Source: Phycisphaerae bacterium
Lineage (GTDB): Bacteria; Planctomycetota; Phycisphaerae; Sedimentisphaerales; Anaerobacaceae
Direction of reading: 5' to 3'
Assembly (NCBI GenBank): GCA_030615025.1
Contig: JAUXAB010000008.1
Location: 1 to 64,000, forward strand
Length of the DNA: 64,000 nucleotides
This document shows, piece after piece, positions 4,194 to 26,253 of the stretch (position 1 is its first letter; each line of letters starts with the position of its first letter). A program made the translations under genes and the position numbers. Under the pieces are notes generated by a model. That model was not told where the DNA came from, made no database searches, and saw only the letters and a list, made by a program, of their open reading frames with translations.

Positions 4194-7100
4194 ATGGAAA
4201 GAACCGGGACAATGAAGACTTTACAAAAGATCGGATGCTTCTTCCTTGCGGCGACCATACTTGTAAGCTGTAGAACGCGAACTGAGTCCGGTGGAGACGG
4301 ACGGAAGCCAAAGCGGGCTTTAGCTTTGAGAGATTCTAAGGCAACTCTATCTGACTCTCTGGGCAAGGCACTTGCAGACTTTAATCGGGGCGCGGCTTTT
4401 CTTGAACAGTACAAGTATACTGAGGCAGCAAGGGCATTCGAGCGAGTTTGCGATGCTGCGCCGGATTGGACTGCAGCACGCTTCAACCTTGGGCTTGCTT
4501 ACTTCAATATGCAGGTTAAGCCCGGCGCGAAAAGTTATCTCAAACTTGCACAAGAGGCGTTTGAAACCGTATTACAGTCCAATCCTGACCACCTGCATGC
4601 GCGATTTTGTCTCGGACTATATTACCAGCACCTTGGGGAAAACGAAAAGGCTCTTGTTTGCCTTCGGAAAGTGTATGAAGGCGATAGCGAAGACCCCTAT
4701 GTGTTGTACAAGTACGCCGAGGCTCTTATTAACCTCGGCCTTACGGAAGACGGCACGAAGATGCTTGAAAAAGTTATTGCTCTCGACCCGGGCTTTATCT
4801 CCGCGGTGTATCGACTTGCGATCCAATACCAGCGCACGCAAAAACGCGACAAGGCAAAGTCTCTTTTTGCCCGTTTCACAAAACTTAAAGACACAGAACT
4901 GACCGGCGGGACCTTTACCGTCCTCAAGGTGTATGGAACGGTGGGAAAATACTATATGGCGCTTGGTGCGGACGGTCAACGCCCAGACTTACCGTCGGTA
5001 AAAACCCCTCTGCAAACACGTATTCTTTTTTCCCCTGAACTAAAGCCTTTAAACGCTGTTACTTCAGCCTGGAAATGCCCTGGCAGGACCGTAGCCCTTC
5101 CGGGAATTGCCGCCGGCGACGTGGATAACGATGGCGACCTCGATCTTTGTATTACCGCGTTTGGTGCCAATGGGAACGTATGGCTATGGCGCAACGATGG
5201 TGCCGGGGGATTTTCACACGATGCAACTTTGGCAAAGCTCGGTATCTCGCCCTGCTTCGGTGATGTGGATAATGACGGGGACCTTGATCTCTGGCTCGGC
5301 TGCGCGGGCCCGGACATCTATTTTGAAAATGATGGGAAGGGGAATTTCAGAAAAAGTGAAGTCTCTACAATTGCCGGCGGGGATTGGGTTACCCACTGTG
5401 CAAGGGTTCTTGATGCTGATAGCGACGGTGATCTGGATTTTCTGGCATTTCGCCTTGCACGCGGAAGGGTTCCAGCTATCGGGGCGTTCGAGCCTGCGGC
5501 CGGCAGCCTCTATAACAACAACAGGGACGGTACGTTTACTGACATTGCCGAAAAGCTTGGTCTGGCGATTGAGAAAACTCCTGTTGCCGCCGTGGTGTAT
5601 GATGATTTTGATAATGACCGCGATTTGGATTTGGTGGTCTTTTCCGCAGGTGGCGGAGAGGCGATTGGCTGGGTGAACGACCGCGCATGGAAATATCGGA
5701 TACTCGACGCCGAAACAACCGGCCTTTCGGTTCAAGGCGTTCTCAGTGCCACTTCCGGGGATCCTGACAAGGATGGGGACCGCGATCTTCTGGTTTTTAC
5801 CGATAAAGTCCGAGAGGACTCCATAGGAGGACTGCAGCTTTTTATAAATCAGGGTGGGTTCCGTTTTGCGCGTCACCAGGGCTTTGCGGATCGCTGTGGC
5901 CGGCTCGGTGGAACCGGTGGACAGTTTGCGGATATGGACAATGACGGCGATCTGGATATTGTGATTGCCGACGCGTTCAGGCGTGACGGCAGCCGAGGTC
6001 CTGCACTGCTTATTAACGATTGGCCTCGAGACCGTTTCATCAACGCGCTGGAAATTGATCCCGGAAATCTTCTTTCCGCCATCACTATCAAGGGCAACGC
6101 CAGTTGTGTGGTGGCGGATTTTACCGGTAATGGAAGATGCGATGTCCTTTTGGCTCCCACCGGCGAAAAACCTTTCCTGGTGGAAAACGTAACGCCGGGC
6201 GGCCATTGGATTGAAATCGACCTTCGTGGAACCCGTGAACAGGACAAGAAATCCCGCTCGAATAATTCAGCCATTGGCGCTCGCGTGGAGATCAAGACCG
6301 GTACCATCTTCCAACAATACGTGGTTGGGGCACCCTCAGGGCAGGTGGCCATGCCTCCGTATCGGATTCATGCCGGGTTAGGGGAATACGTTAAGGTGGA
6401 CTGGTTGCGCATAATGTGGCCCGATGCTGTTCTTCAAGCGGAGCTGGAACTGACTGCAGATCAGGTGATGACGATTACCGAGCTGCAGCGTAAGGTTTCT
6501 TCCTGCCCACATCTTTTCGCGTGGGACGGTTCGCATTTTGAGTTCGTATCCGATTTTGGAGGCATGGGAGGGATCGGGTACCTCGTGGCGCCAGATGTGT
6601 ATGCCAGGCCTGACCCCACGGAGTATTTACCTGTTCCGAATCTTAAACCACGTGACGGTGAATACGTCCTTCAGGTGCTGGAACCAATCGAGGAAGTCGT
6701 TTATTTTGATGAAGCCAAATTAATCGCGGTTGACCATCCGGTGGAGACGGAAGTTTATCCCCACGAGATGATGGCCGTTGGTGCCCCGCCTCCACCTTTT
6801 GAGCTTTTTTGCTTCAAAGACCCGATCGAACCGATACGTGCCATTGACCATTGCGGTGTCGATGTCACCGAGAAAATACGTACGGTTGACCGACGTTATG
6901 CCGGTGCGACCGCACCAGACCCCCGTTTCATAGGGTTTGCCGAAGAGCATTTTGTAGAGCTTGACTTCGGCGATCGCCTTCAGACGGTATCGCCTCAATC
7001 ACGGCTGGTGTTGTTCCTTCACGGATCGGTTGAGTACGCCTACTCTTCAACAAATTTCGCTGCGAGCCAGGCAGGTATGCGCCTCCGGGCTCCCAGTGTC

Positions 7101-7769
7101 TATGCCTTTCGCAACGGCACGTGGGTTGAGATTTTCCACGAGGTCGGATACCCAGGTGGTATCCGGCATATGATGACTCTCGATGTGACCGGAAAGGTGC
7201 TGCCCAGCGACCGGCGAATTCGCATCTCCAGTAATATGGAGCTGTACTGGGACCGGATATTCATGGCGCCTATCCTTAAGGACGCGGGGCTTTACGTCCG
7301 GGAAGTGTCAGTGAAAAGTGCAAATCTTCACTTCCTGGGTTATCCGCGGGAATACTCTCCTGATGGGCGGCATCCGAATCTTTACGATTACGGCAGTGTG
7401 GACGGGGCCGTTGCATGGAAAATTATGGAGGGCAGCTACACCCGCTATGGTGACGTAGCAGAACTTCTGGAAAAAGCGGACGACTGTTATGTCATTATGG
7501 GGCGAGGAGAGGAGCTTACACTGCGTTTTTCTGCAGACGCTTTGGCGCCAGTGTCCGCGGGATGCCGTCGTTCGTTTATTCTCAAAACCGACAGCTTCTG
7601 TAAGGACATGGACCTTTACTCGGCATATCCCGATACAGTAGAACCGCTTCCCTTTCATTCGATGAGTAACTATCCCTATGGCGTGAATGAAAAGTATCCC
7701 GATGATGAAAAACGGCGGAAATACCGGATGCGGTTTAACACCCGGCAGGTACTTGGCCCAAGCCGCTAA
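4194..7769 (+). CDS. Lipoprotein with N-terminal TPRs, central VCBS/FG-GAP repeats, ASPIC/UnbV-like domain and a large C-terminal extension
   Basis: ATILVSCRTR lipobox (alternative start 4212); TPR-like EAARAFERVCDAAPDWTAARFNLGLAYFNM; repeated GDVDNDGDLDL; GARVEIKTGTIFQQYVVGAPSGQ...HAGLGEYVKVDWLRIMWP. Confidence 0.85.
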   Translation: MERTGTMKTLQKIGCFFLAATILVSCRTRTESGGDGRKPKRALALRDSKATLSDSLGKALADFNRGAAFLEQYKYTEAARAFERVCDAAPDWTAARFNLGLAYFNMQVKPGAKSYLKLAQEAFETVLQSNPDHLHARFCLGLYYQHLGENEKALVCLRKVYEGDSEDPYVLYKYAEALINLGLTEDGTKMLEKVIALDPGFISAVYRLAIQYQRTQKRDKAKSLFARFTKLKDTELTGGTFTVLKVYGTVGKYYMALGADGQRPDLPSVKTPLQTRILFSPELKPLNAVTSAWKCPGRTVALPGIAAGDVDNDGDLDLCITAFGANGNVWLWRNDGAGGFSHDATLAKLGISPCFGDVDNDGDLDLWLGCAGPDIYFENDGKGNFRKSEVSTIAGGDWVTHCARVLDADSDGDLDFLAFRLARGRVPAIGAFEPAAGSLYNNNRDGTFTDIAEKLGLAIEKTPVAAVVYDDFDNDRDLDLVVFSAGGGEAIGWVNDRAWKYRILDAETTGLSVQGVLSATSGDPDKDGDRDLLVFTDKVREDSIGGLQLFINQGGFRFARHQGFADRCGRLGGTGGQFADMDNDGDLDIVIADAFRRDGSRGPALLINDWPRDRFINALEIDPGNLLSAITIKGNASCVVADFTGNGRCDVLLAPTGEKPFLVENVTPGGHWIEIDLRGTREQDKKSRSNNSAIGARVEIKTGTIFQQYVVGAPSGQVAMPPYRIHAGLGEYVKVDWLRIMWPDAVLQAELELTADQVMTITELQRKVSSCPHLFAWDGSHFEFVSDFGGMGGIGYLVAPDVYARPDPTEYLPVPNLKPRDGEYVLQVLEPIEEVVYFDEAKLIAVDHPVETEVYPHEMMAVGAPPPPFELFCFKDPIEPIRAIDHCGVDVTEKIRTVDRRYAGATAPDPRFIGFAEEHFVELDFGDRLQTVSPQSRLVLFLHGSVEYAYSSTNFAASQAGMRLRAPSVYAFRNGTWVEIFHEVGYPGGIRHMMTLDVTGKVLPSDRRIRISSNMELYWDRIFMAPILKDAGLYVREVSVKSANLHFLGYPREYSPDGRHPNLYDYGSVDGAVAWKIMEGSYTRYGDVAELLEKADDCYVIMGRGEELTLRFSADALAPVSAGCRRSFILKTDSFCKDMDLYSAYPDTVEPLPFHSMSNYPYGVNEKYPDDEKRRKYRMRFNTRQVLGPSR

Positions 7770-7828: not shown

Positions 7829-7857
7829 TTGCGTTAGACCGGCTTTTTTGTTATCCT
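7829..7857 (+). promoter_or_regulatory. Putative promoter TTGCGT-N17-TATCCT (cassette 1)
   Basis: Same -35-like hexamer and 17 bp spacing as at 11247-11275 and 14823-14851. Confidence 0.5.
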
Positions 7858-7928
7858 TAAAGACAAACAGCGTGCAACGCAACCTTTACGTTCCAGATGC
7901 AAAGTCTTTCTTGCCGAAGCAATCTACA

Positions 7929-9383
7929 ATGAGAAAGCACAAGATAATGAGAGATCAGAAAAAGAAGACTTCTGAGCATTCACAAACACAGACCCTGGCT
8001 TCACGGAAACGGGTTACCCGCCCCTTCGTCCTTGGGCTGATTCTATGTCTAATTATTGCTGGTTTATATTGTGTGCTAACCTTAACCAACACGAAAAAAG
8101 AATCGCGAACGATGGAGCCGTCCATCGATTCTATGGAACAGGCATTGCGCAGGCCGGCTTCTCCAACACTTATTCCGGAAAAAGAATTTGCGAAACTGAA
8201 AGAAGAAGAAATGAAGTTAGCCCGGCGGGTACTGAAAGATTTTCCCGACAAGGATGATTCGAATGTGCTAATGGGAAATCTATATCGCAGGCATGGTAAT
8301 TCTGCAGAGGCCATCAAGTTTTGGGAAGGAAGCTTGAAAATAAATCCGAAGCGGGCCGATGTTTATCGGAGAATGGGAAAGCTCGCGCTGGACACGGGGG
8401 AGCTCGAAAAAGCCATCACCTTATGGAGAAAAGTCCTGGAGATAAAGCCTGACATGCCGGGTGTACGCAGTGATGTTGCCCGCGCGCTCATAGATTTGGG
8501 TAGATACAGCGAAGCTATCACAGAATTGGAGGAGGAAAGTAGGATTTCATCCGTCTCAATCCTTACTTGTTTTCTGTTCGCGCAGGCGCATCTGCAGCAG
8601 AATGAATATGATAAAGCAAGGCAGTACTACGAAGCGACGATTGGGCTTAAGCCCAATTTCACCCAAGCATATTACGGGCTATATACGCTGTGCGTGAGGT
8701 TAAAGCAGTGGAATAAGGCCCGAGAATACGAAGCTATCTTTAAGAAGCTCAAGGCCAAGGAACGGCACACCTATTTGGGCCGTGACCGAGACTCTCTTGC
8801 TGATCTCGCGTCACTCCAAAGAGGTGTAGCCAGAACATATTTAGATGCCGAGCGACTTTATCGCGAAAAAGGCGATATGCAAGAAGCAGAGAGACTTTTA
8901 CAAAGGGCGTCCGAGCTGGAACCTACGAACACCCGATGCCGGGAAAGACTGGCATCTTTGTACTATATGACCAGCCGGTTTCGAGAAGCGCTATATCAGT
9001 TCGAAAAAATTAGCCAAATCGATCCAAATGACCCATTCTGTTATTTGAACATTGGACAAGTATCAATCCGGTTGAAACTAATGGATAAGGCTGAAAAAGC
9101 TTACCGAAAGGCCATCAAGCTCTCACCTGAACAATCCGCTGGGTATCGCGAACTCGCACGTCTATACCTCAGGACGAACAAGAAACTCTCTGAGGCGAGA
9201 AAACTTGCAGAAAAGGCGGTGACCTTGGAAAAAATCGCAGACAACTACCATGTATTTGCGTGGGCTGCTGAGGTCAACGGTGATTCAGCAAGCGCGTTAC
9301 AAGCAATGGAACGAGCAATGAAGCTTGAACCGGCCAATCTGAAATACAGACAGATTTATGAACGTATCAAGACAAGGAATTGA
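7929..9383 (+). CDS. Membrane-anchored TPR protein (cassette 1)
   Basis: One TM segment (PFVLGLILCLIIAGLYCVL) followed by TPR repeats. ORF-track start 7797 is doubtful because the promoter-like element lies inside it; ATG 7929 (MRKHKIM) preferred. Confidence 0.8.
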   Translation: MRKHKIMRDQKKKTSEHSQTQTLASRKRVTRPFVLGLILCLIIAGLYCVLTLTNTKKESRTMEPSIDSMEQALRRPASPTLIPEKEFAKLKEEEMKLARRVLKDFPDKDDSNVLMGNLYRRHGNSAEAIKFWEGSLKINPKRADVYRRMGKLALDTGELEKAITLWRKVLEIKPDMPGVRSDVARALIDLGRYSEAITELEEESRISSVSILTCFLFAQAHLQQNEYDKARQYYEATIGLKPNFTQAYYGLYTLCVRLKQWNKAREYEAIFKKLKAKERHTYLGRDRDSLADLASLQRGVARTYLDAERLYREKGDMQEAERLLQRASELEPTNTRCRERLASLYYMTSRFREALYQFEKISQIDPNDPFCYLNIGQVSIRLKLMDKAEKAYRKAIKLSPEQSAGYRELARLYLRTNKKLSEARKLAEKAVTLEKIADNYHVFAWAAEVNGDSASALQAMERAMKLEPANLKYRQIYERIKTRN

Positions 9384-9384
9384 G

Positions 9385-11103
9385 GTGATAAACTTTGCGG
9401 ACGTTCAAGAGTGCGGCGTGTTTGTGAGCCGGCTATGTGCGGCGACGCTCGCGTTCCTGGGTTTGCTTTCCCAAGTGTGTGCCGGCGGCCCTATCGTGCT
9501 TCGGGACGTGACCAAGGAGACCGGAATTACTTTTAGACACACCGATGGCAGCAGCGGTCGGCGCTACATAATGGAGACTGTGACAGCGGGATTGGCAGTT
9601 TTTGACTATGATAATGACGGGGATATAGACATATACTTTTTAAATGGTGGGGCACTAAAAGCGGCTAAGCTTAAAATCCCACCCAGAAATGCGCTTTATC
9701 GTAACGAAGGTAACTGGAAATTTGCCGATGTAACAGAAAAGGCAGGCGCAGGCGACACAGGCTACGGATTAGGCGTTGCGGTTGGTGATTACGATAATGA
9801 CGGAGATTCGGATATTTACCTGAATAATCACGGACCAAACGTACTGTACCGCAACAATGGTGACGGCACGTTTACCGATGTGACCAAACAGGCAGGTGTA
9901 GAGAATGGGTCTTATACAGGGGCCGGAGCGTGTTTTCTCGACATGGACAAGGACGGCGACCTGGACCTATATGTCTCGAACTATCTTGAGTTTTCGCATG
10001 ACAAACACCTTACCACCACAGGAGATGGTTTTCCTGTTTATGTTGGCCCTGCTTTTTTTCCGCCCGTGCCGGACGCCCTGTATCGTAACAACGGCGACGG
10101 CACCTTTACCGATGTTAGTAAAGGTTCGGGCGTGGCAGACCATCCCAACTGGGGTATGGGAATGGTCTGTGGTGACTACGACAACGACGGGGATACGGAT
10201 ATTTATGTACTCAACGATGGTGCAGGTAATATTCTTTTTGAAAACGACGGTACGGGAAAGTTCAAAGAAGCAGGCCTGATGGCTGGTATCGCCTATGACA
10301 TCTACGGCGATGCGCAGGGCAGCATGGGTGTGGACTGCGGAGATTACGACAACGATGGGTTGTTGGATCTCTATGTTACTTCTTATCAGGGGCAGTTAGC
10401 GCTGCTGTATAGGAATCTGGGCAATGGAATGTTTGACGACATGACAAGATTGACCGGCGCTGGCGCCGGAACCGTCTCCAATGTGACGTGGGGAACCGGC
10501 TTTGTTGATTTCGATAACGACGGGGACCGTGACATCTTTGTTGCATGCGGTCACTTGCAGGACAATATTGAGCTCTGGGACGACAGATCCACATATTTCC
10601 AACATAATATACTTTATATGAACACCGGTGATGGAAAATTCGTCAATGTATCGGAAAAAAGCGGAGACGGTTTGAAAGTCAAGCTCAGCAGCCGCGGCGC
10701 GGGCTTCGACGATTTAGACAACGACGGAGATATAGATGTGGTCATCCTGAATTCCCGCCGGGAGCCTACTATTTTGAGAAACGACTCGCCGTCTAAAGGA
10801 CACTGGATTCAGGTTCGCTTACGAGGAACAAAAAGCAATCGGGACGGAGTGGGAGCGCGCGTCAAGGTTGTTGCCGGTGACCTGACGCTCATCGACGAGG
10901 TTCACAGTGGTCGTGGCTATCAGAGCCATTACGGCATGCGGCTGCACTTCGGATTGGGAAACCGTGAAAAGGTGGACCGTATCGAGGTACGATGGATCGG
11001 AGGCGGCGTGGATGTATTTAAGGACATCGCGGTGGACAGGCTTGTAACACTCACCGAAGATAGCTCGAAAGTCGAACCGAAATCAACCGAGGAGATTTTG
11101 TAA
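9385..11103 (+). CDS. CRTAC1-family secreted protein (VCBS/FG-GAP repeats + ASPIC/UnbV)
   Basis: Repeated DYDNDGDxD; GVGARVKVVAGDLTLIDEVHSGRGYQSHYGMRLHFGLGNREKVDRIEVRWIGG. Start likely GTG 9385, aligning with the paralog start at 16357. Confidence 0.88.
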   Translation: MINFADVQECGVFVSRLCAATLAFLGLLSQVCAGGPIVLRDVTKETGITFRHTDGSSGRRYIMETVTAGLAVFDYDNDGDIDIYFLNGGALKAAKLKIPPRNALYRNEGNWKFADVTEKAGAGDTGYGLGVAVGDYDNDGDSDIYLNNHGPNVLYRNNGDGTFTDVTKQAGVENGSYTGAGACFLDMDKDGDLDLYVSNYLEFSHDKHLTTTGDGFPVYVGPAFFPPVPDALYRNNGDGTFTDVSKGSGVADHPNWGMGMVCGDYDNDGDTDIYVLNDGAGNILFENDGTGKFKEAGLMAGIAYDIYGDAQGSMGVDCGDYDNDGLLDLYVTSYQGQLALLYRNLGNGMFDDMTRLTGAGAGTVSNVTWGTGFVDFDNDGDRDIFVACGHLQDNIELWDDRSTYFQHNILYMNTGDGKFVNVSEKSGDGLKVKLSSRGAGFDDLDNDGDIDVVILNSRREPTILRNDSPSKGHWIQVRLRGTKSNRDGVGARVKVVAGDLTLIDEVHSGRGYQSHYGMRLHFGLGNREKVDRIEVRWIGGGVDVFKDIAVDRLVTLTEDSSKVEPKSTEEIL

Positions 11104-11246
11104 ACGACAGTGAAAAACAGCACAGGGCCGGTACCAGAGGCGGTTTAATACCCGGCGGGTAGGTAGCCCCGGGAGCCGAACGGAGTCCGCAGCAGAATCT
11201 TCAGCACTTGACCGAGAAAATCGTTAGGCGGATCCGCCGAGGCGGA

Positions 11247-11275
11247 TTGCGTAAGAGTAACTTTTTTGGTATGAT
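11247..11275 (+). promoter_or_regulatory. Putative promoter TTGCGT-N17-TATGAT (cassette 2)
   Basis: ttgcgtaagagtaacttttttggtatgat, aligned to cassette 3 ttgcgtaatagtaactttttttgtataat. Confidence 0.6.
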
Positions 11276-11302
11276 CCAGGAAAAAGAGGCCGCTTTTTGC
11301 TT

Positions 11303-11376
11303 GGTAATTGGTAATCGGTTATTAGTGATTTGATTACCAATTACCGGTTACCAGTTACCAATTACCAGTTACCAAT
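11303..11376. repeat. ttggtaattggtaatc-type palindromic repeat in the cassette 2 5'UTR
   Basis: 14 bp perfect arms GGTAATTGGTAATC (11303-11316) and GATTACCAATTACC (11332-11345), then further ggttaccagttaccaattacc units up to the ATG at 11380. Confidence 0.85.
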
Positions 11377-11379
11377 TAT

Positions 11380-12819
11380 ATGGCAAAGCATAAAAAAAGA
11401 GGGGAACGGGAAACAAAAAATTCCGGACGTTCACCCAGCCCCTGTGAGGGGCGGGGTTCACAACCGTCCGCCCCGGCTGCTCCGAAATTCACTAAATGGC
11501 TATTCATCTTTGGCGTAATCGCATGTGTGGCAATTGCAGGTTTTTGGGGCATGAAGTCCTTCTTATGCAGTACCGAACAGCCGGAGCCTTCAACAGTACC
11601 ATCGAAACTTACTGTGGAACAAGAAGTTTCCGCTTTGAAAAAAGAGGAGATAGAGCTCGCCGAACAGCTGATGAGAGAATTTCCCAATAGCGAAGCTCCG
11701 TTAGTGTTGATGGGCAATGTGCGTAGAAAGCATGGTAATTCTGCCGAGGCGGTGAAATGCTGGGAAAAAGCGTTGGCTCAAAACCCCAGGCGTCCCGACG
11801 CATATAATGGTATGGGATGGATAGCCGTTGAAAAAGGAGAATACGAGAAGGCGATTGCCTTCTGGAGAAAAGCCCTGGAGATTAACCCCAAAATGCCCGG
11901 CGTACACAATAGTATCGCCCAAGCGCTCATGGCGCTGGGTAAATACAGCGAAATTATCGAAGAAGCCCAGGAGGAGCTAAAGATTTCACCCCAGTCCGAT
12001 CTTAGTTATTTTCTGCTCGGGCAGGGATATTTGAAACAGAAGGAGTATGATAAGGCAAAGAAGTACTACGAAACAGCCATCGAGCTTCAGCCCAATAATA
12101 TGAACGCGTATTATGGTCTTTTTACCGCGTGCTCGAGATTGAAGCTGCAAGACAAGGCCAGGGAGTACATGGCTACCTTTAAAGAATTGAAGGCTAAGGA
12201 CAGGAAGGTCTTAATGGATCGCAATAAGGCCTTTGATGATCTCGTTACGATAAGAAAAGGTCTGGCCGAGACATATAGGGATGCCGAACAACTCTATTGG
12301 AAGAAGGGGAATTTACAAAAAGCCGAAGAACTCCTGGAAAGGGCTGTAACACTGGACCCGAAAAACACTGAATACCTCATGAAGCTGGGGGAGCTATTTC
12401 AGAATCGTAACCGGCTACCGGATGCACTTCAGATGTACGAGAAAGTCAGGGAAATGGAACCAGATAATATGATTAATCACATGAATATAGGTGTTCTTTC
12501 AATGCAGCTCAAGCAGTTTGCTATTGCGGAGAAGGCCTTTCAAACAGCAATTACGCTTGCTCCGAAGTTCTCTGGTGGTTATCGCGAACTGGCACAGTTG
12601 TATTTAAAAACGGGGAGAAAATTTCCCGAAGCAATGAAACTTGCGAAAAAGGCGGCAGCATTGGAAGAAATAGCAGCTAACTATTTCATATTAAGCTGGG
12701 CCTATGACAAGAACGGAGATGTTGCCGGTGCACGTTCGGCTCTGAAACGAGCTACGGAGCTGGACCCAGGCAATTTAGAATACCAGCGGATGTATGAGTT
12801 AATTCAGAAGAGGGATTGA
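11380..12819 (+). CDS. Membrane-anchored TPR protein (cassette 2)
   Basis: MAKHKKRGERETKNS...; single TM; many TPRs; paralog of 7929-9383 and 14916-16355. Confidence 0.87.
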   Translation: MAKHKKRGERETKNSGRSPSPCEGRGSQPSAPAAPKFTKWLFIFGVIACVAIAGFWGMKSFLCSTEQPEPSTVPSKLTVEQEVSALKKEEIELAEQLMREFPNSEAPLVLMGNVRRKHGNSAEAVKCWEKALAQNPRRPDAYNGMGWIAVEKGEYEKAIAFWRKALEINPKMPGVHNSIAQALMALGKYSEIIEEAQEELKISPQSDLSYFLLGQGYLKQKEYDKAKKYYETAIELQPNNMNAYYGLFTACSRLKLQDKAREYMATFKELKAKDRKVLMDRNKAFDDLVTIRKGLAETYRDAEQLYWKKGNLQKAEELLERAVTLDPKNTEYLMKLGELFQNRNRLPDALQMYEKVREMEPDNMINHMNIGVLSMQLKQFAIAEKAFQTAITLAPKFSGGYRELAQLYLKTGRKFPEAMKLAKKAAALEEIAANYFILSWAYDKNGDVAGARSALKRATELDPGNLEYQRMYELIQKRD

Positions 12820-12820
12820 C

Positions 12821-14662
12821 GTGGTGGTTCTTAGAGGCGGTCGAGAACGTTGGACAGGCAGGAAAGTAAGGAAGCTCGAAGCACGAAACACGAAATTCGA
12901 AACGATATCGAATTACCAAAATTCAAATGACCAAAACGGTTTTGAACATTCGAAAATTCGAATTTTGAATTTGTTTCGGATTTCGATATTCGAATTTCGG
13001 ATTTCTACGCAGGGGGTGGTGATGCTGGTGTTATTATGTGCCCTTTGCCAGGTATGTGAGGGCGGTCCCATTGTGCTTCGCGATGTCACCGAAGAAACAG
13101 GAATTACTTTCACGCACACCGATGGGGGATGTGGCGAACGTTATGTAATGGAGACGGTCAGTGCAGGTTTGGCGCTTTTTGATTATGATAATGACGGGGA
13201 CATAGACGTCTATTTTCTCAATGGTGCGCCACTCAAGGGGGCAAAGGTTGACGTTGAACCTGCGAATGCACTTTATCGCAATGAAGGGAATTGGAAATTT
13301 ACCGATGTAACAGAAAAGGCAGGCGTAGGTGACACAGGTTACGGATTAGGCGTTGCGGTTGGTGATTACGATAATGACGGACATTCGGATATTTACCTGA
13401 ATAATCACGGACCAAACGTGCTGTATCGCAATAATGGCGATGGCACCTTTACCGATGTAACAGAAAAGGCCGGTGTAGACTGTGGGTTCCAAATGGGGGC
13501 CGGCGCCTGTTTTCTTGATATGGACAATGACGGCGACCTGGACCTTTACGTTTCAAACTATCTTGAGTTTTCTTATGAACAACATTCCACACATACAATA
13601 AACGGCATTCCCGTGTACGTAGGTCCCGGTTTTTATCCGTCTGCACCCGATATCATGTATCGTAACAACGGCGATGGCACCTTCACCGACGCCAGCGAGG
13701 TCCTGGGGGTGGGCGAGCACGGCGAACCGGGCATGGGGATGGTGTGTGGTGACTACGATAACGATGGGGACACGGATATCTTTGTAGCCAACGATATGAA
13801 AGGGAATTTCCTTTTTGAAAATGACGGCACCGGGAAATTTGAAGAGGTCGGGCTCATGACAGGGATTGCATACGATCTCAATGGCGAGGAGCACGGGAGT
13901 ATGGGAGTGGACTGCGGCGATTATGACAACGACGGACGGCTGGATTTCTATGTAACCTCTTACCAAACGCAGTGGGCCACGCTTTACAAAAATATGGGCG
14001 ATGGCGTATTTGAAGACGTGACGCCGGTAACCGGTGCGGGAGCGGGGACCCTTCCCTTTGTGACGTGGGGCAACAGCTTCGTCGATTTCGATAACGACGG
14101 GTTTCGTGACATCTTCATCGCATGTGGTCACCTGCAGGATAATATTGAACGTTATGACGATACCACCATGTATCTTGTACGAAACATACTCCTTATGAAC
14201 ACCGGTGACGGAAAATTCGTCAACGTATCGAACCAAAGCGGAGACGGCTTGAAAGTCAAGCTCAGCAGCCGCGGCGCGGGCTTCGACGATTTAGACAACG
14301 ACGGAGATATTGATGTGGTCATCCTGAATTCCCGCCGGGAGCCTACTATTTTGAGAAACGATTCGCCGTCTAAAGGACATTGGCTGCAAGTTCGTTTGCG
14401 GGGAGTTAAGAGCAACCGGGACGGGGTAGGAGCGCACGTCAAGGTTGTGGCTGGTGATATAACGCTCTTGGACGAGGTTCATAGCGGCCGTGGGTATCAG
14501 AGTCATTACGGCATGCGTCTTCACTATGGACTGGGAAACCGTGAGAAGGTGGATCGTATCGAGGTACGATGGATCGGCGGTGCAGTTGATGTTTTTAAGG
14601 ATATTGCGGTTGATCAGCTTTTGACAATCACTGAAGGAAGTTCGAGAGTCGAATCGAAATAA
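12821..14662 (+). CDS. CRTAC1-family secreted protein (cassette 2); N-terminus interrupted by a repeat, alternative start ATG 13021
   Basis: VCBS + ASPIC/UnbV as in paralogs; residues RKLEARNTKFETISNYQNSNDQNGFEHSKIRILNLFRISIFEFRIS are translated repeat DNA. Confidence 0.85.
   Translation: MVVLRGGRERWTGRKVRKLEARNTKFETISNYQNSNDQNGFEHSKIRILNLFRISIFEFRISTQGVVMLVLLCALCQVCEGGPIVLRDVTEETGITFTHTDGGCGERYVMETVSAGLALFDYDNDGDIDVYFLNGAPLKGAKVDVEPANALYRNEGNWKFTDVTEKAGVGDTGYGLGVAVGDYDNDGHSDIYLNNHGPNVLYRNNGDGTFTDVTEKAGVDCGFQMGAGACFLDMDNDGDLDLYVSNYLEFSYEQHSTHTINGIPVYVGPGFYPSAPDIMYRNNGDGTFTDASEVLGVGEHGEPGMGMVCGDYDNDGDTDIFVANDMKGNFLFENDGTGKFEEVGLMTGIAYDLNGEEHGSMGVDCGDYDNDGRLDFYVTSYQTQWATLYKNMGDGVFEDVTPVTGAGAGTLPFVTWGNSFVDFDNDGFRDIFIACGHLQDNIERYDDTTMYLVRNILLMNTGDGKFVNVSNQSGDGLKVKLSSRGAGFDDLDNDGDIDVVILNSRREPTILRNDSPSKGHWLQVRLRGVKSNRDGVGAHVKVVAGDITLLDEVHSGRGYQSHYGMRLHYGLGNREKVDRIEVRWIGGAVDVFKDIAVDQLLTITEGSSRVESK
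12861..13005. repeat. 'attcgaatttcg'-type palindromic low-complexity repeat inside the CRTAC1 5' end
   Basis: cgaagcacgaaacacgaaattcgaaacgatatcgaattaccaaaattcaaatgacc...cgaaaattcgaattttgaatttgtttcggatttcgatattcgaatttcgg; absent from paralogs at 9385 and 16357. Confidence 0.85.
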
Positions 14663-14822
14663 ACCGAGGGATCTTCGTAAACGGCAGCTGGAAAACGACT
14701 CGGGGGACCAATACTGAAGACGGGCCTAATACCCTGCAGGTAGGTGGCCTGGGGGGGACTAAACAGGGTCCGCGATAGAATCCTCAGCGTGGCATCAAGA
14801 GGACCGTCGCATGCAGGGTCTC

Positions 14823-14851
14823 TTGCGTAATAGTAACTTTTTTTGTATAAT
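14823..14851 (+). promoter_or_regulatory. Putative sigma70-like promoter TTGCGT-N17-TATAAT (cassette 3)
   Basis: 17 bp spacer and consensus -10; conserved in the other two cassettes. Confidence 0.65.
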
Positions 14852-14915
14852 CCAGCAAAAAAGGTGGTTATAGAGTGTTCTTACACAAAGTGAGAAGGCT
14901 CTAAGGCTATATTCG

Positions 14916-16355
14916 ATGGCAAAGCATAAAAAAAGAGGGAAACGGAAAACAAAGAATTCCAGTCGTTCACAACCACCTGTCTCGGCTACTGCGAAACGGC
15001 CTATGTGGGTGCTTGTACTGGCGGCAGTCGTATGCGTCGGCATTGCCGGTTTTTTCTGGTTGAAGTCTTTGTCTGGCCCGGAAGAAAAACCGCAGAAAAC
15101 TGAGACCCACTCCGATTCAATGGCAGGGCCGGGTGGTTCTGTGCTTACACAAAAAGAGAAAATTGCCGCGCTGAAAACCGAAGAGATGCTGCTAACTCAG
15201 CAACTATTGAGAGACTTTCCCGGAAGCGATGCTACACTCGCCTTTGTTGGCAGTGTCTACGGACAACACGGTAACAATACCGAGGGCGTCAAATTGTTGA
15301 ACAAAGCACTGGAACTGAATCCGAATCGGCCCGACGTGTACAACGCCCTGGGGTGGGTAGCCTTCACGAAAGGAGCCTATGAGGAGGGGATTACCTGCTG
15401 GAAAAGAGCTTTGAAAATCGATGCGAGACTGCCCGGCCTGCGCAGCTCCATCGCCTTTTCACTAATGGCGCTTGGCAGATACACGGAAGCTATAGAACAA
15501 CTCGAGAACAATGTTCAAATCTTCCCTAAGTCAGTCTACAGTCATTTCCTGCTCGGCCAGGCATATCTACAGAAAAAGGACTATGAGAACGCCAAAAAAC
15601 ATTACCAGACAGCGATAGGGCTCGATCAGAACTATGTGAACGCCTACTATGGGCTATTTACAGCTTATTCACGTTTAAAGCAGCAGGACAAAGCCCGCGA
15701 GTACATGGCCATCTTCAAGAAACTAAAGGCAGAGGAAATGAAGGCCTTAAAGGCTCGCGACAAGGTATACGATGACCTGGTCATAATGCGACGAACAGTG
15801 GCTCAAAATCAAGTTTTAGCCGCACGGATTTACCGGGCCGCGGGGCGGTCCGACAAAACCGAAGAACTGCTGCAAAAGGCGATAACACTTGTTCCCGAGA
15901 ACACAATATGCCTTACAGAATTGGCCGGTTTATATTCCATGACGAACCGTCCAGCCGAAGCTCTGAAGATGTATAACAGAATCAGTGAAATCGAACCTCA
16001 GAATCCTGCTTGTTTCTTGAACATAGGCGTAATCTCAGCCACGCTAAAGAGGTTCGATGACGCCGAAGAGGCCTTTCGTGAAGTAATCAAGCTGGCACCG
16101 GAAGACTCCAGCGGGTATCGTGAGCTTGCCTGGCTGTATCTAAACACAAAGAACTCTTACGACCAGGCCCGGAAGCTTGCCGAGAAAGCCGTAAAACTGG
16201 AGAAAACGGCGGCCAACTACTATCTGCTAACCTGCGCCTGCGACATGAACGGTGACCGAACGAACGCCCTAAAAGCGGCCGAGCAGGCAATACGGTTGGA
16301 CCCCGGCAATGTGGAATACAAACAGACCTATCAACTTATTAAAAACGGGAAATAA
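14916..16355 (+). CDS. Membrane-anchored TPR protein (cassette 3)
   Basis: MAKHKKRGKRKTKNS..., TM WVLVLAAVVCVGIAGFFWL, TPRs. Confidence 0.87.
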   Translation: MAKHKKRGKRKTKNSSRSQPPVSATAKRPMWVLVLAAVVCVGIAGFFWLKSLSGPEEKPQKTETHSDSMAGPGGSVLTQKEKIAALKTEEMLLTQQLLRDFPGSDATLAFVGSVYGQHGNNTEGVKLLNKALELNPNRPDVYNALGWVAFTKGAYEEGITCWKRALKIDARLPGLRSSIAFSLMALGRYTEAIEQLENNVQIFPKSVYSHFLLGQAYLQKKDYENAKKHYQTAIGLDQNYVNAYYGLFTAYSRLKQQDKAREYMAIFKKLKAEEMKALKARDKVYDDLVIMRRTVAQNQVLAARIYRAAGRSDKTEELLQKAITLVPENTICLTELAGLYSMTNRPAEALKMYNRISEIEPQNPACFLNIGVISATLKRFDDAEEAFREVIKLAPEDSSGYRELAWLYLNTKNSYDQARKLAEKAVKLEKTAANYYLLTCACDMNGDRTNALKAAEQAIRLDPGNVEYKQTYQLIKNGK

Positions 16356-16356
16356 G

Positions 16357-18051
16357 ATGGTTAAGCTCTCGCGCGTTCAAGAAGGCGGGCGGCGTGTTAG
16401 ACAGAGATTTTCGCTGGTGCTCGTCTTCCTGTGTGTCCTTTTCCAAATATGTGCCGGCGGTTCAATCGTGCTTCGTGACGTCACCAAAAAAACAGGAATT
16501 ACCTTCAGGCATACGGACGGAAGCAGCGGGAACCACTACGTAATGGAGACGGTCACTGCGGGATTGGCGCTTTTTGATTATGATAATGATGGCGATATCG
16601 ACATCTATTTTCTCAATGGGGCTCCGCTGAAAGGCAGGAAGTTTAAGACGCCGCCAATGAATGCCCTTTACCGCAACGATGGTGACTGGAAATTTACCGA
16701 CGTTACAAAAGAGGCCGGGGTGGATGACAGGGAGTATGGCTTAGGCGTTGCTGTTGGCGATTACGATAACGACGGAGATTTGGACGTCTACTTGAATAGC
16801 TACGGCCCGAATGTTTTGTACCGTAACAATGGTAACGGTACCTTCACGAATGTCGCAAAGCAGGCGGGCGTAACCAATGACTTCAAAGTCGGCGCGGGGG
16901 CTTGTTTCCTCGACGCGGACAAAGATGGAGATTTGGACCTTTACGTTTCAAATTACCTGGATTTCTCCTATGGCAAACATGTCCCCATCATGCAAAGAGG
17001 TATTCCCGCTTACGCAACCCCGCGTTACTTTTTGCCCTTACCCGATAATCTGTACCGTAACAACGGGGACGGCACGTTTAAAGATATTTCTGAAAGCTCG
17101 GGTGTGGGACTGCACGCCGGATGGGGGATGGGGATTGTGTGCGCTGACTACGATAATGACGGCGATACGGATGTCTTTATCGGCAACGACGTAGCGGAGA
17201 ACTTTCTGTTCCGAAATGACGGGACTGGAAAATTTGAAGAAATGGGGCTCGTGTCAGGCTGTGCTTATGACCTCCATGGTGATCAACATGGAAGCATGGG
17301 AGTTGATTGCGGGGATTATAATAACGACGGATTGTTTGACTTCTATGTGACCAGTTACGAGGACCAGTTGGCCACGCTATACAGGAACCTTGGTGATGGT
17401 ATGTTCGAAGATGTGACGATGCTCACCGGTGCCGGAGCAGGAACGCTGCCCCACGTAACCTGGGGCAACAGCTTTGTGGATTTCGATAACGATGGCGACC
17501 GTGACATCTTCGTCGCATGCGGCCACCTGCAGGATAACGTCGGGCTATACGACGATACGAAAACCTATTTGGCACGCAATATACTGCTTATGAACACCGG
17601 CGACGGCAAGTTCATCGATATTTCTGACAAAGCCGGCGACGGTATGAACGTAAAATTGAGCAGCCGGGGTGCCGGCTTTGACGACCTCGATAACGATGGT
17701 GATATTGATGTGGTGATACTCAATTCCCGCAGAGAGCCTACCATTTTGAGAAACGACTCGCCGTCTAAAGGGCACTGGATTCAAGTTCGCTTACGAGGAA
17801 TAAAAAGCAATCGGGACGGAGTGGGAGCGCACGTCAAGGTTGTGGCTGGTGATCTAACGCTCTTGGACGAGGTCCATAGCGGTCGTGGGTATCAGAGTCA
17901 TTACGGGATGCGTCTTCACTATGGACTGGGAAACCGCGAAAAGATAGACCGTATCGAGGTCCGCTGGATAGGTGGTGGAGTCGATACTTTTAAAGATATT
18001 GCAGTCGATCAGCTTTTGACAATCACTGAAGGAACCGGCCGCACGCAATAA
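16357..18051 (+). CDS. CRTAC1-family secreted protein (cassette 3)
   Basis: MVKLSRVQEGGRRVRQRFSLVLVFLCVLFQICAGG signal peptide; VCBS repeats; ASPIC/UnbV C-terminus. Confidence 0.88.
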   Translation: MVKLSRVQEGGRRVRQRFSLVLVFLCVLFQICAGGSIVLRDVTKKTGITFRHTDGSSGNHYVMETVTAGLALFDYDNDGDIDIYFLNGAPLKGRKFKTPPMNALYRNDGDWKFTDVTKEAGVDDREYGLGVAVGDYDNDGDLDVYLNSYGPNVLYRNNGNGTFTNVAKQAGVTNDFKVGAGACFLDADKDGDLDLYVSNYLDFSYGKHVPIMQRGIPAYATPRYFLPLPDNLYRNNGDGTFKDISESSGVGLHAGWGMGIVCADYDNDGDTDVFIGNDVAENFLFRNDGTGKFEEMGLVSGCAYDLHGDQHGSMGVDCGDYNNDGLFDFYVTSYEDQLATLYRNLGDGMFEDVTMLTGAGAGTLPHVTWGNSFVDFDNDGDRDIFVACGHLQDNVGLYDDTKTYLARNILLMNTGDGKFIDISDKAGDGMNVKLSSRGAGFDDLDNDGDIDVVILNSRREPTILRNDSPSKGHWIQVRLRGIKSNRDGVGAHVKVVAGDLTLLDEVHSGRGYQSHYGMRLHYGLGNREKIDRIEVRWIGGGVDTFKDIAVDQLLTITEGTGRTQ

Positions 18052-18090: not shown

Positions 18091-19113
18091 ATGATGAGTT
18101 CCATCGATAGATTCTATGCAGCGGCATGTCAGCTTGACATGCCCAATCCGAAGCAACGCGACGAAATTACCGGCCGGGTCGAGCGGATGCTGGAGATGAT
18201 CGACCAGGCGGTAGCGGGCTACGAGCCGGTCTTCGACGTACGGCTCGTGGTGTTTCCGGAGTTTGCCCACGCGGCACCCATCTACCCTACCGTTGATGAG
18301 TTGCTTGACAACTTGGCCGTGCCCATCCCAAACGAACACACACAACGCTATCAAGAAAAAGCGAAACAGCTAAACATCTACATCCAGACCGGCACATTTC
18401 TGGAGGCGGACCCCCGCTGGCCCGGCCACGTGTTTAATACGACCTGTCTGATCGGTCCGGACGGCATCCTCTCGAAGTACCGCAAGGTGCACCCGTGGAC
18501 ACCTTGGGAAGTGCACACCAGCCCGCACGATTTGGCCGACTACGACGAGCCGATGTTTCCCGTGGCCGAGACCGAGATCGGTAAGATCGGCACCGCCATT
18601 TGCTACGACTGGCTGTTCCCCGAGGCAATTCGGCAGCTGAGTCTCGGCGGGGCCGAGCTGCTCGTGCGCGTCTCGGCGTATATGGACCCGTGGGGAACAA
18701 CCCCACCTCTGGATTGGTGGACGCTCGTCAACCGTGTGCGCGCGCTGGAGAACATGGCCTATGTGGTCGCAGCCAACCAGGCGGCCAGCCTGCAAAACTA
18801 TCCGCCGTTCAGCTGGCCCGGAGGCAGCATGATAGTTGACTACGATGGCCGCGTGCTCGCCCAGGCCGAGCAGGGAGCGGGGGAGAAGATCGTTGTCGGC
18901 CCGATTGATCTGGCCGCCTTGCGCGCCGAACGGCAGCGCCGTCGCGGACATCATATGCTGGCCCACCTGCGAACCGAAGCCTATCCGGCCTACCAACAGC
19001 CGATCTACCCAGCCGGCCGAGGCAGCAACGGCACGATTACCGTTGAGAGCAACGAGGTTTCGCTTCGTCAAGCCCGTGAGGCCCTGAAGCGGATATCACG
19101 CGGCCGGCCCTGA
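18091..19113 (+). CDS. Carbon-nitrogen hydrolase (nitrilase superfamily)
   Basis: Catalytic triad contexts VVFPEFA (E), SKYRKVHPW (K), GTAICYDWLFPE (C). Confidence 0.85.
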   Translation: MMSSIDRFYAAACQLDMPNPKQRDEITGRVERMLEMIDQAVAGYEPVFDVRLVVFPEFAHAAPIYPTVDELLDNLAVPIPNEHTQRYQEKAKQLNIYIQTGTFLEADPRWPGHVFNTTCLIGPDGILSKYRKVHPWTPWEVHTSPHDLADYDEPMFPVAETEIGKIGTAICYDWLFPEAIRQLSLGGAELLVRVSAYMDPWGTTPPLDWWTLVNRVRALENMAYVVAANQAASLQNYPPFSWPGGSMIVDYDGRVLAQAEQGAGEKIVVGPIDLAALRAERQRRRGHHMLAHLRTEAYPAYQQPIYPAGRGSNGTITVESNEVSLRQAREALKRISRGRP

Positions 19114-20374
19114 CCATACCAAGGCGGACGGTTCGGCTATTGCCTCCCAGCGCATCCCACTTGACGATCCCCGTTACGCCTGCCCACGGCGAGAGTTCCC
19201 TGACGGCGTCACGAATTCGTACGCGATTAAGCCCGGCCTTGCGTATGGCGGCAATCAAAAGGTTGACGGCGTCATAGGTGTGTGCGGCAAGGTAGTCCGG
19301 GCCATTTCCAAAGTGGGAAATGAATTTCTTTTCAAAGCTATCTCCGGCATACTGCTCGTGCAGTATGACGGACTTGCCTGGGGTTACCCCTGGAATATAA
19401 AGCAGGGGGAATATAACGCCCTCCGCCGCCTGACCGGCTTCTTCCAGAAAACGGCGGCGTCCCATACTTGGGCCTCCGAAGATACATCCCGTAAAGCCTT
19501 TTTTGCGAACGGCGGAAATGAGGCGCGCACTGTCTTGGGCGCCGGCGATAACGACCAGGGCATGAGCGCCCACCTTCACGATTTTTTCTACAAGCTCTGT
19601 GTAATCTTTACCACTATGTTTGAATTCAAAGTGATAGCTCGGCGCTATTTGCTGCCGGGTCAAGGACTTGTTGAGCTCAACTGTGAAAACATGGGAATCG
19701 TGATCGGTAGCCGATACAAGAAGAAATGGCTTTCGCCCAACGTGTAACGAGATAGCGCCAGCCAGGACCGGGGCCTGAAGGTGGTCGCCGGGAAGACAGG
19801 AAAACATCCACGGCACATTGGCGAGATTCACTGTCTTATCGGTGCATCCGGGGTTAAGCAGAGACAAGCGGGCCTTAGCGACGACCTGCTCGGCAAGGTG
19901 GGTTGACGGCCCGTCAATGCCCCCGATGAAAGCCCAGACTTTATCCACGTAGGCCATGCGAACTACCTTTGAGATGCCCGAACCCCAGGGGTTGTCCGAC
20001 CAACCCGCAACCAGACGAAACGGCAGGCCCTTGTACCCGCCTGACTGATTGGCTTCTTCAATGGCTAAGCACGCCGCACACCACATGTCGCCTGCTTCCG
20101 GGTGGGAAAGTGTGCTGGGGCCGAAGTATCCTATTAATACTTCCTTGATATCAGTGGGAGGACGTTTCTCACGTCCGGGCCCTGCGTAGTTTGTTTGGTG
20201 TTTTCTCGCATCAAAAAAGACTTTGCGAGAAGGCCGCTCCCTGGGGTACGTATCCCCGGCCCATACCACGAAGGATAAGACCAACAATGCTGCAAAGACG
20301 AGGGACGAGAGACGAAGGACGAGGGAATTGCGAATTGCGAAATTGAACTTCGAATTTCGAAATTCCTTGTTCAT
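19037..20374 (-). CDS. Branched-chain amino-acid-type periplasmic substrate-binding protein (PBP1 fold)
   Basis: EVLIGYFGPSTLSHPEAGDMWCAACLAIEEANQSGGYKGLPFRLVAG...; homologous to 20423-21910. Start ATG 20374 assumed. Confidence 0.8.
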   Translation of the reverse strand: MNKEFRNSKFNFAIRNSLVLRLSSLVFAALLVLSFVVWAGDTYPRERPSRKVFFDARKHQTNYAGPGREKRPPTDIKEVLIGYFGPSTLSHPEAGDMWCAACLAIEEANQSGGYKGLPFRLVAGWSDNPWGSGISKVVRMAYVDKVWAFIGGIDGPSTHLAEQVVAKARLSLLNPGCTDKTVNLANVPWMFSCLPGDHLQAPVLAGAISLHVGRKPFLLVSATDHDSHVFTVELNKSLTRQQIAPSYHFEFKHSGKDYTELVEKIVKVGAHALVVIAGAQDSARLISAVRKKGFTGCIFGGPSMGRRRFLEEAGQAAEGVIFPLLYIPGVTPGKSVILHEQYAGDSFEKKFISHFGNGPDYLAAHTYDAVNLLIAAIRKAGLNRVRIRDAVRELSPWAGVTGIVKWDALGGNSRTVRLGMVRAGRVISASGPHGLDEAKPRCSQR

Positions 20375-20390
20375 TATTCGATATTCATCA
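20296..20390. repeat. Composite repeat: 'gacgagggacgagagacgaaggacgag' plus 'cgaattgcgaaattgaacttcgaatttcgaaattcc'
   Basis: Low-complexity repeats overlapping the N-terminus of the 19037-20374 gene. Confidence 0.8.
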
Positions 20391-20422
20391 CCGGGCATTC
20401 TGTTTTATCCTGTAAATCCTGT

Positions 20423-21910
20423 CTAAAGCTTTGCCGGCGGCCTGCTGACCCTGTCTCGCCGGGGAATGTAGCCTCGAGGTATCTTAAGCTCTTCTCTGGA
20501 GTAGAAGTTCCATTTGCCTTTTTTTCGTTTTGCCAGGTACACATCGCCAACGTCATCGAGGCAGGAGCTTAGCATAATATCGCCCGTTACGCCGTTGAAG
20601 GGCCTAACTCTATATGCCAGCACATCGCGGATTTTCGCCCGGTTAAGACCTGCCACCTGTACGGCCCAGATAAGCATATTCATACCATCGTAGGCGTGAG
20701 CGGCGAATGTTTCCGGTTCTTCACCAAAGCGCTTCCTGAAGGCCTTGCGGAACTCTGTGAGTCTCTTGTTTTTACCTTTCGGATTCCATGGAGAGCTACA
20801 GATAACCCCCTCGGCATTTGCCCCGGCGATTCCGATGAACTCATCCGAAAGGCAGCGGTCGGAGGCGAAGTAGGGCTGCTTCATACCCATGGCACGCATC
20901 TGGTTTAGAATCTGTGCGCCTTCAACGGCGTCACCCCAGTGAACAATTGCCTCGAGATTTTCTCTCTTGAGACGCTCCAGTTGTAAAGAGAAGTCCTGTA
21001 TCCCCAAATCATAGGCCATTTCCAAAACAATTGGATTGCCGAGGCGCCGGCTTCCATCAAGGATTTCACGGACGCCGAAGCGGCCGTAACGGTTGCTCCC
21101 ACGTATGACTCCGACCCGTTTGAGGCCGAGCTTTCTATACAGGTAATCAACAAGGAGGTAACCTTGTTGCCGATCGTCGCTGATGCAGCGAAAAACCCAC
21201 GGGATGTTCGTCTCGATAAATGTTGGGTCGGTGTCGCCGGAGTTCATCATAACAATTTCGGCCTTGAGCGCGACCCGGATAGCAATGTGGCTGTTGGCAC
21301 CGTCAATGGTGCCGAGAATCACCCAGACTTTGTCCTTATAAGCCAATTTGATGATTTCATTACCAGAGGCGCCCCAGAGTCCGTTATCGTTACTGATAGC
21401 AAGTTCAAAGGGAATATTCCGCTTAAGATACCCTCCCCTAACGTTGGCTTCTTCGATGGCGAGCCGGACGCCTTGCAGCATCTTAATGCCCAACGTTTCC
21501 TCATGGCTCTTTCCGCCGGTAGCTACCGAAACGGTAGACATAATCGGGCCGATGAAGCCGAGCTTGACGGTCTCTACGTCGATCGGCTCGGGGATTGCTC
21601 GACCGGGCCCTGTGTACTCGATTTGGAGCAGGAAGTGCTCCTTAAACGGCGTCACATGCCGAAACGGCTCGACGTCCTGTGCGGTTTTCGCGTATACCTC
21701 ATCCTCTCGCAGCCCAAGGTCGGGAACTTCGTAGGCACTGACAGAGTTGATTTTCCGAAGGACTTCAAGCGTTTCGGGGTCAACGTCCGCCGAAAGGCGT
21801 CCTGCGGAGACAGAAGACTCCAAGCCCTCTGTTTTTGTTTCTTCCGGCCCGGCGCAAGACAGGGCACCCAGCACAAGGGCTGCGGAAAGTAGAATCATAT
21901 ATCGCTTCAT
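20423..21910 (-). CDS. Periplasmic substrate-binding lipoprotein (PBP1 fold)
   Basis: MKRYMILLSAALVLGALSCAGPEE lipobox; VKLGFIGPIMSTVSVATGGKSHEETLGIKMLQGVRLAIEEANVRGGY. Confidence 0.85.
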   Translation of the reverse strand: MKRYMILLSAALVLGALSCAGPEETKTEGLESSVSAGRLSADVDPETLEVLRKINSVSAYEVPDLGLREDEVYAKTAQDVEPFRHVTPFKEHFLLQIEYTGPGRAIPEPIDVETVKLGFIGPIMSTVSVATGGKSHEETLGIKMLQGVRLAIEEANVRGGYLKRNIPFELAISNDNGLWGASGNEIIKLAYKDKVWVILGTIDGANSHIAIRVALKAEIVMMNSGDTDPTFIETNIPWVFRCISDDRQQGYLLVDYLYRKLGLKRVGVIRGSNRYGRFGVREILDGSRRLGNPIVLEMAYDLGIQDFSLQLERLKRENLEAIVHWGDAVEGAQILNQMRAMGMKQPYFASDRCLSDEFIGIAGANAEGVICSSPWNPKGKNKRLTEFRKAFRKRFGEEPETFAAHAYDGMNMLIWAVQVAGLNRAKIRDVLAYRVRPFNGVTGDIMLSSCLDDVGDVYLAKRKKGKWNFYSREELKIPRGYIPRRDRVSRPPAKL

Positions 21911-21988
21911 AATGTTAACCTCCTCCCAATCCAAATTAAGCATCGCTAAAAATGAATACTCTTGGTTATTATTTTACCATATTTGTTT

Positions 21989-26189: not shown

Positions 26190-26210
26190 TGCATTACTAC
26201 TCCAATAATC

Positions 26211-26253
26211 CACACATTTACATGTGTGCTATTCCCCACACATAAGTGTGGGG
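26211..26253. repeat. Two adjacent palindromes CACACAT-TTAC-ATGTGTG and CCCCACAC-ATAA-GTGTGGGG
   Basis: Perfect inverted repeats in the short spacer between two operon genes. Confidence 0.8.

Follow-up and report, generated by a model that had tools for sequence, protein, structure and literature searches.

Three TPR-CRTAC1 cassettes and the element upstream of each

The window, which is the whole 64-kb stretch of DNA that was analysed, contains three head-to-tail gene pairs, each with a TPR gene followed by an FG-GAP/UnbV gene, as found from the ORF list and Pfam. An earlier note on this DNA had described three cassettes of a TM-anchored TPR gene and a CRTAC1-type gene, and their positions are borne out by the ORFs, Pfam matches and TM segments. 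The features of the array are listed below; the promoter-like elements come from motif search and alignment, the genes from ORFs and Pfam, with TM prediction for the TPR genes and an AF2 model for CR3.

7829..7857, + strand, promoter-like element of cassette 1, TTGCGT-N17-TATCCT
7929..9383, + strand, TPR1, TM-anchored TPR protein, 484 aa
9385..11103, + strand, CR1, exported CRTAC1-type seven-motif propeller with UnbV
11247..11275, + strand, promoter-like element of cassette 2, TTGCGT-N17-TATGAT, with a TGG extended -10
11380..12819, + strand, TPR2, TM-anchored TPR protein, 479 aa
12821..14662, + strand, CR2, CRTAC1-type propeller with UnbV; a dispersed repeat is inserted in-frame at the N-terminus
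14823..14851, + strand, promoter-like element of cassette 3, TTGCGT-N17-TATAAT
14916..16355, + strand, TPR3, TM-anchored TPR protein, 479 aa
16357..18051, + strand, CR3, CRTAC1-type propeller with UnbV

CR1-CR3 are members of the UnbV_ASPIC family (E 2e-17 to 2e-18; 63-71 bits against a curated cut-off of 23.4) and match FG-GAP_3 (E 2e-50 to 2e-53; 169-180 bits). Each contains seven Dx[DN]xDG loops, which are putative calcium-binding motifs. TPR1-TPR3 matched many TPR models in Pfam, and a TM-like segment is located at each N-terminus. A possible CRTAC1 start lies 1 nt past the TPR stop in all three cassettes, and in cassettes 1 and 3 further CRTAC1 starts are available within the TPR gene. 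In CR2, a palindromic repeat of about 130 bp (12868-13012) lies in-frame in the n-region of the signal peptide, so that the working start may be near 13019. This repeat has 38 matches in the source genome at E <= 1e-5, and the CR2 orthologues in two relatives, G004 and G002, do not carry it. An Rfam search of the window matched no RNA element.

The pattern TTGCGT-N17-TATNNT, which the earlier note had placed before each cassette, was found in the window at 7829, 11247 and 14823 only (3 observed against 0.10 expected; 0 of 100 shuffles reached 3). In an alignment of eight cassette upstream regions, the mean column conservation of the 29-bp element was 0.82, compared with 0.49 upstream and 0.53 downstream, a value that is partly given by construction because most of the aligned sites were chosen by TTG and TAnnnT. 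The spacer (A, A, CTTTT) was likewise conserved, and a TGn extended -10 was present in most copies. The element is thus conserved upstream of most related cassettes, as the proposal of a promoter before each cassette implied. Among the upstream regions searched, it was not found before cassette 3 of G004 or in PL23b (L062), where the previous gene ends about 30-50 nt before the cassettes. The pairs may be transcribed independently, as the earlier note proposed, though the layout in PL23b makes this less certain. A genome-wide regulon was ruled out by the occurrence of only 12 sites across the 3.92-Mb assembly, and outside the cassettes the longer element was about as frequent as its backwards control. 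These low counts suggest that the element was inherited along with the cassettes, and it is probably a sigma-70-type promoter. Head-to-tail TTACC-type 7-mers were also observed at 11303-11380, between the promoter-like site and the TPR2 start codon (six pattern matches, 0.02 expected).

Pairing and co-inheritance of the partners

The source genome has seven PF07593 genes, five of which belong to TPR-CRTAC1 pairs: the three in the window array, one on contig C108 and one on C109. The two others are a fused gene at 4194-7769 and CR4 at 26254-27873. In G004, a genome of the same genus, an array of three cassettes adjoins the same fused gene and three more pairs are present; G002 has three pairs. 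Measured against cassette 3, identity is 66-82% for the CRTAC1 partners and 36-50% for the TPR partners. Between orthologues, the dN of the TPR gene is 1.2-2.9 times that of its CRTAC1 partner. The TPR partner of G004 cassette 1 (L047 7820-8839) is shorter, at 339 aa versus about 480, with 6 repeats detected versus 10, alongside an intact CRTAC1 partner.

When public genome contigs were searched with the CRTAC1 alignment, 80 loci were obtained. A same-strand TPR gene was located directly upstream of 41 of 93 CRTAC1 genes, compared with 18 of 403 background genes, i.e., other genes within the same loci (Fisher p 1.8e-20), and a TPR gene was found downstream of 12 of 90. The true upstream fraction is probably higher, given that the TPR detector was home-made, and these fractions are not a census because the loci were selected by CRTAC1 similarity. 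The 45 pairs collected come from Planctomycetota (Sedimentisphaerales, Pirellulales), Poribacteria and Acidobacteriota, and two pairs stand in tandem in the cultured planctomycete Roseimaritima sediminicola (L114) and in KatS3mg111. The stop-to-start distance is at most about 25 nt in most pairs, with a 4-nt overlap in six. The earlier note had proposed a gene-neighbourhood search across Planctomycetota, and by this measure the TPR-then-CRTAC1 pairing is conserved in at least three phyla. The neighbours of the pairs elsewhere differ and include laminin-G-like proteins, the pseudopilin DUF1559, a TonB-type receptor and a sulfatase-modifying factor. Laminin-G-like proteins (PF13385 in the tested representative) were observed near CRTAC1 genes at 21 loci, which is a raw count (L044-L125 grouped).

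The TPR and CRTAC1 trees of the 45 pairs agreed with r 0.93. Because this value includes species phylogeny, partners were shuffled within multi-pair genomes only, and the observed r was reached in 1 of 20,000 shuffles for 21 pairs and in 3 of 20,000 for 15 pairs. Cassette 3 of the window groups with cassette 1 of G004 and cassette 1 of B3_Pla, cassette 2 with cassette 2 of G004 and one G002 pair, and cassette 1 with cassette 2 of B3_Pla. These groupings across arrays indicate that cassettes move and are reordered as units. Co-inheritance is no proof of binding, since linkage alone could yield it. Taken with the natural fusion described below, it leads us to infer that the TPR and CRTAC1 proteins may bind each other physically.

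A slot beside a hydrazine-synthase-like cluster and mosaic CRTAC1 genes

Two aspects of the locus were missed in the earlier reading. One is the slot between the fused gene (FUS) and a hydrazine-synthase-like (HZS-like) cluster, related to the anammox enzyme; the other is that the 3' ends of the CRTAC1 genes have undergone gene conversion. The features flanking the array are as follows; the nitrilase, PBP1, PBP2 and REG come from Pfam and locus comparison, and HZSa from a profile match and locus comparison.

4194..7769, + strand, FUS, lipoprotein-type signal, TPR, FG-GAP propeller, UnbV and C-terminus in one chain
18091..19113, + strand, nitrilase-superfamily (CN_hydrolase) gene closing the slot
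19037..20398, - strand, PBP1, Peripla_BP_6 protein of the HZS-like cluster
20423..21943, - strand, PBP2, Peripla_BP_6 protein of the HZS-like cluster
21989..23179, - strand, REG, Reg_prop propeller protein of the HZS-like cluster
23307..26213, - strand, HZSbg, HZS-beta-gamma-like multihaem protein, 10 CxxCH (8 N-terminal and 2 C-terminal)
26254..27873, - strand, CR4, CRTAC1-family protein of the HZS-like cluster, of a subfamily different from CR1-3
27870..30017, - strand, HZSa, HZS-alpha-like protein

FUS lies directly upstream of the cassettes and is 64-82% identical beside cassettes in four genomes, with its TPR part at about residues 50-236. Its C-terminal region of about 420 aa (6504-7769) has no Pfam match and is predicted to be beta-rich; of 199 Planctomycetota genomes, 68 have a match to these 421 residues, mostly a single one. 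In two other families FUS adjoins a nitrilase. The order of the slot is FUS-[TPR-CRTAC1]n-(nitrilase) facing PBP1-PBP2-REG-HZSbg-CR4-HZSa, where n is 3 in the source genome (G000), 3 in G004, 2 in B3_Pla and 2 in PL23b. The PL23b slot is without the nitrilase, another ORF replaces REG, and a third pair lies beyond HZSa. The closed genome G214, which belongs to another family, has FUS adjoining the cluster with no cassettes between, and the contig of G336 that carries the cluster holds neither FUS nor cassettes. Cassettes stand beside four of the six full-length beta-gamma homologues.

HZS-like clusters in non-anammox bacteria (clades I-III), with a CRTAC1 gene included, have been reported previously (PMC12758564), so the presence of CRTAC1 beside HZS-like genes is already published. 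In that report, the clade I beta-gamma protein has eight extra N-terminal haem motifs, two substrate-binding genes lie downstream of the cluster, and TPR genes are not mentioned. The cluster of the window is similar to clade I in its gene order (alpha-like, CRTAC1, fused beta-gamma-like), in the eight extra N-terminal CxxCH motifs (8 + 2) and in the two substrate-binding proteins. It differs from the published clusters in that a TPR-CRTAC1 fusion, two to three cassettes (three in the window) and a nitrilase adjoin it, and from hydrazine synthase proper in that beta-gamma is one fused gene.

The pairs are not confined to this setting. Unlinked loci of the source genome and its relatives also carry TPR-CRTAC1 pairs, and the Pirellulales-type pairs L066, L069, L072 and L114 are in genomes without any HZS_alpha match. 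These observations indicate that the module is not dependent on the HZS-like complex, and HZS_alpha linkage as a general property of all pairs was rejected. In G004:C75 and G002:C400, weak HZSa relatives lie 13-17 kb away from pairs, a proximity that is compatible with chance because related genomes carry as many as 22-26 genes of the HZS_alpha family each.

The CRTAC1 genes have a mosaic history. Over the first ~430 codons, dS between orthologues was 0.4-0.9, compared with 1.2 to saturation between copies within an array (dS 1.2-2.7); the exception is cassette 1 of the window, which is near saturation against its B3_Pla orthologue. Over the last ~133 codons, covering the propeller end and UnbV, the within-array dS was 0.57-1.30, compared with 1.0-1.9 or saturation between orthologues, and the cassette CRTAC1 3' ends share 80-86% DNA identity. 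Clustering by array was rejected for the 5' part (delta lnL 700, AU 3.5e-4), and the orthologue tree was rejected for the 3' part (delta lnL 120, AU 1.7e-41). The simplest reading is that neighbouring cassettes exchange CRTAC1 3' ends by gene conversion. A fully array-wise tree was also rejected for the 3' part (delta lnL 59, AU 1.5e-3), indicating that conversion was partial (G4a1 escaped). Selection for a common UnbV interface may maintain this conversion.

Predicted folds and the role of the pairs

The AlphaFold2 model of CR3, built from a 42-sequence alignment, had a pLDDT of 92 and a pTM of 0.90. Its best PDB match was murine CRTAC1 (9etn; TM 0.74/0.76, E 1.6e-32); behind it came PVL-type lectins of fungi, which bind GlcNAc, and integrin alpha headpieces or propellers. 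The predicted model thus has the CRTAC1 fold over the whole chain, with the same seven-motif calcium-type FG-GAP propeller and UnbV as CRTAC1/ASPIC-UnbV. CR3 differs from murine CRTAC1 in being bacterial and exported, with about 19% identity in the structural alignment, and this subfamily differs from the CRTAC1 family in being mostly encoded behind a TM-anchored TPR partner. The model of FUS (pLDDT 81, pTM 0.65) was less well predicted than that of CR3, and places a MamA-like TPR and a CRTAC1 fold within one chain.

An N-terminal TM-like segment was detected in 36 of the 45 TPR partners, and in 31 of these 36 the net charge was more positive before than after the segment. This bias fits an N-in anchor with a periplasmic TPR and is consistent with the anchored TPR and exported propeller proposed in the earlier note. 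In our judgement there is little doubt that both partners are extracytoplasmic.

For two of the three cassette TPRs, the TPR family model with the highest bit score is that of the magnetosome scaffold MamA, whose fold also closely resembles the TPR part of FUS. Assignment of TPR1-TPR3 as MamA was rejected at the NCBIfam cut-off (110-132 versus 200 bits), and they differ from MamA in having an N-terminal TM anchor and no magnetosome context.

The cassette anatomy, pairing, co-inheritance, promoter footprint, slot and gene conversion are established at the level of sequence, and the CRTAC1 propeller is a predicted fold. On this basis, each cassette may be a two-gene, presumably co-transcribed, unit whose products form an extracytoplasmic complex. 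Its first gene would give a TPR superhelix facing the periplasm, with one N-terminal helix in the inner membrane, and the second an exported, calcium-stabilised, seven-bladed CRTAC1-type propeller with a C-terminal UnbV. Each TPR partner would hold or position its own propeller, and the partners would have been duplicated, moved and inherited jointly. The unit would have multiplied in a slot between its single-chain version (4194-7769) and a CRTAC1-containing HZS-like cluster, with the cassettes sharing a common UnbV surface and the TPR and propeller diverging. Their likeliest role would be to serve the periplasmic cytochrome complex, or its substrate-binding proteins, as accessory scaffolds or docking modules. 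That TPR and CRTAC1 form a module with a joint function is very likely in our judgement. We consider the whole explanation, paired envelope modules most probably accessory to the HZS-like complex, to be about evenly poised. The part in which the cassettes serve the neighbouring complex, based on the fixed slot and on the regular presence of CRTAC1 in such clusters, is tentative and a little short of an even chance, because pairs are also unlinked and occur in genomes without HZS_alpha.

Those genomes would also agree with the pair being an envelope or surface module in its own right, such as a propeller that binds a ligand or glycan and is displayed by a membrane TPR, whose array beside the HZS-like cluster is accidental. 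The very different neighbours, including the grouped laminin-G-like lectin folds and the pseudopilins, and the PVL-type lectins and integrin alpha propellers as the closest folds after CRTAC1 point in the same direction. However, four genomes keep two or three cassettes in an identical slot though orthologues and order differ, which exceeds what one chance insertion would suggest, and we regard an accidental array as rather unlikely. An expansion of paralogues without joint function, in which two common families co-travel through adjacency only, would likewise produce matching trees by linkage alone. Such families are certainly common: UnbV genes are found in 139 of 199 Planctomycetota genomes, with at least 28 in one, and TPR genes are abundant. 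This expansion is improbable, given the recurrence in three phyla of the TPR-then-CRTAC1 order with overlap or near-overlap, the single-protein fusion across Planctomycetota, the conserved promoter element, and dN well below dS in both genes.

The similarity of the CRTAC1 3' ends in DNA might point to a recent amplification, or to an artefact of assembly, as the origin of the tandem copies. Yet cassettes 1-3 fall into separate orthologue groups common to other genomes, which refutes a recent amplification; 5' synonymous sites are near saturation between copies, and G004 and B3_Pla, separate assemblies, have the same layout. This explanation is hardly credible. Within the preferred reading of paired envelope modules accessory to the HZS-like complex, a more specific and quite improbable version treats the cassettes as docking or specificity subunits of that periplasmic complex, interchangeable and each with its own promoter. 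Their constant UnbV end, kept uniform within each array by gene conversion, would bind shared machinery, and the diverging TPR and propeller parts would select different partners.

In the literature searched, no description was found of the TPR-CRTAC1 pairing, the tandem array or the mosaic evolution, nor of a function for bacterial CRTAC1-like exported proteins. In Poribacteria and Acidobacteria, UnbV/FG-GAP genes are similarly multi-copy or paralogous; unlike here, a pairing with TPR genes is not reported in the parts of those accounts consulted (PMC3909097, PMC3174227). The TPR partner, the single-chain fusion and the fixed slot on the HZS side offer a testable handle on the function of CRTAC1-like proteins, and the mosaic, with its constant and variable parts, suggests where in the propeller protein the shared interface lies.
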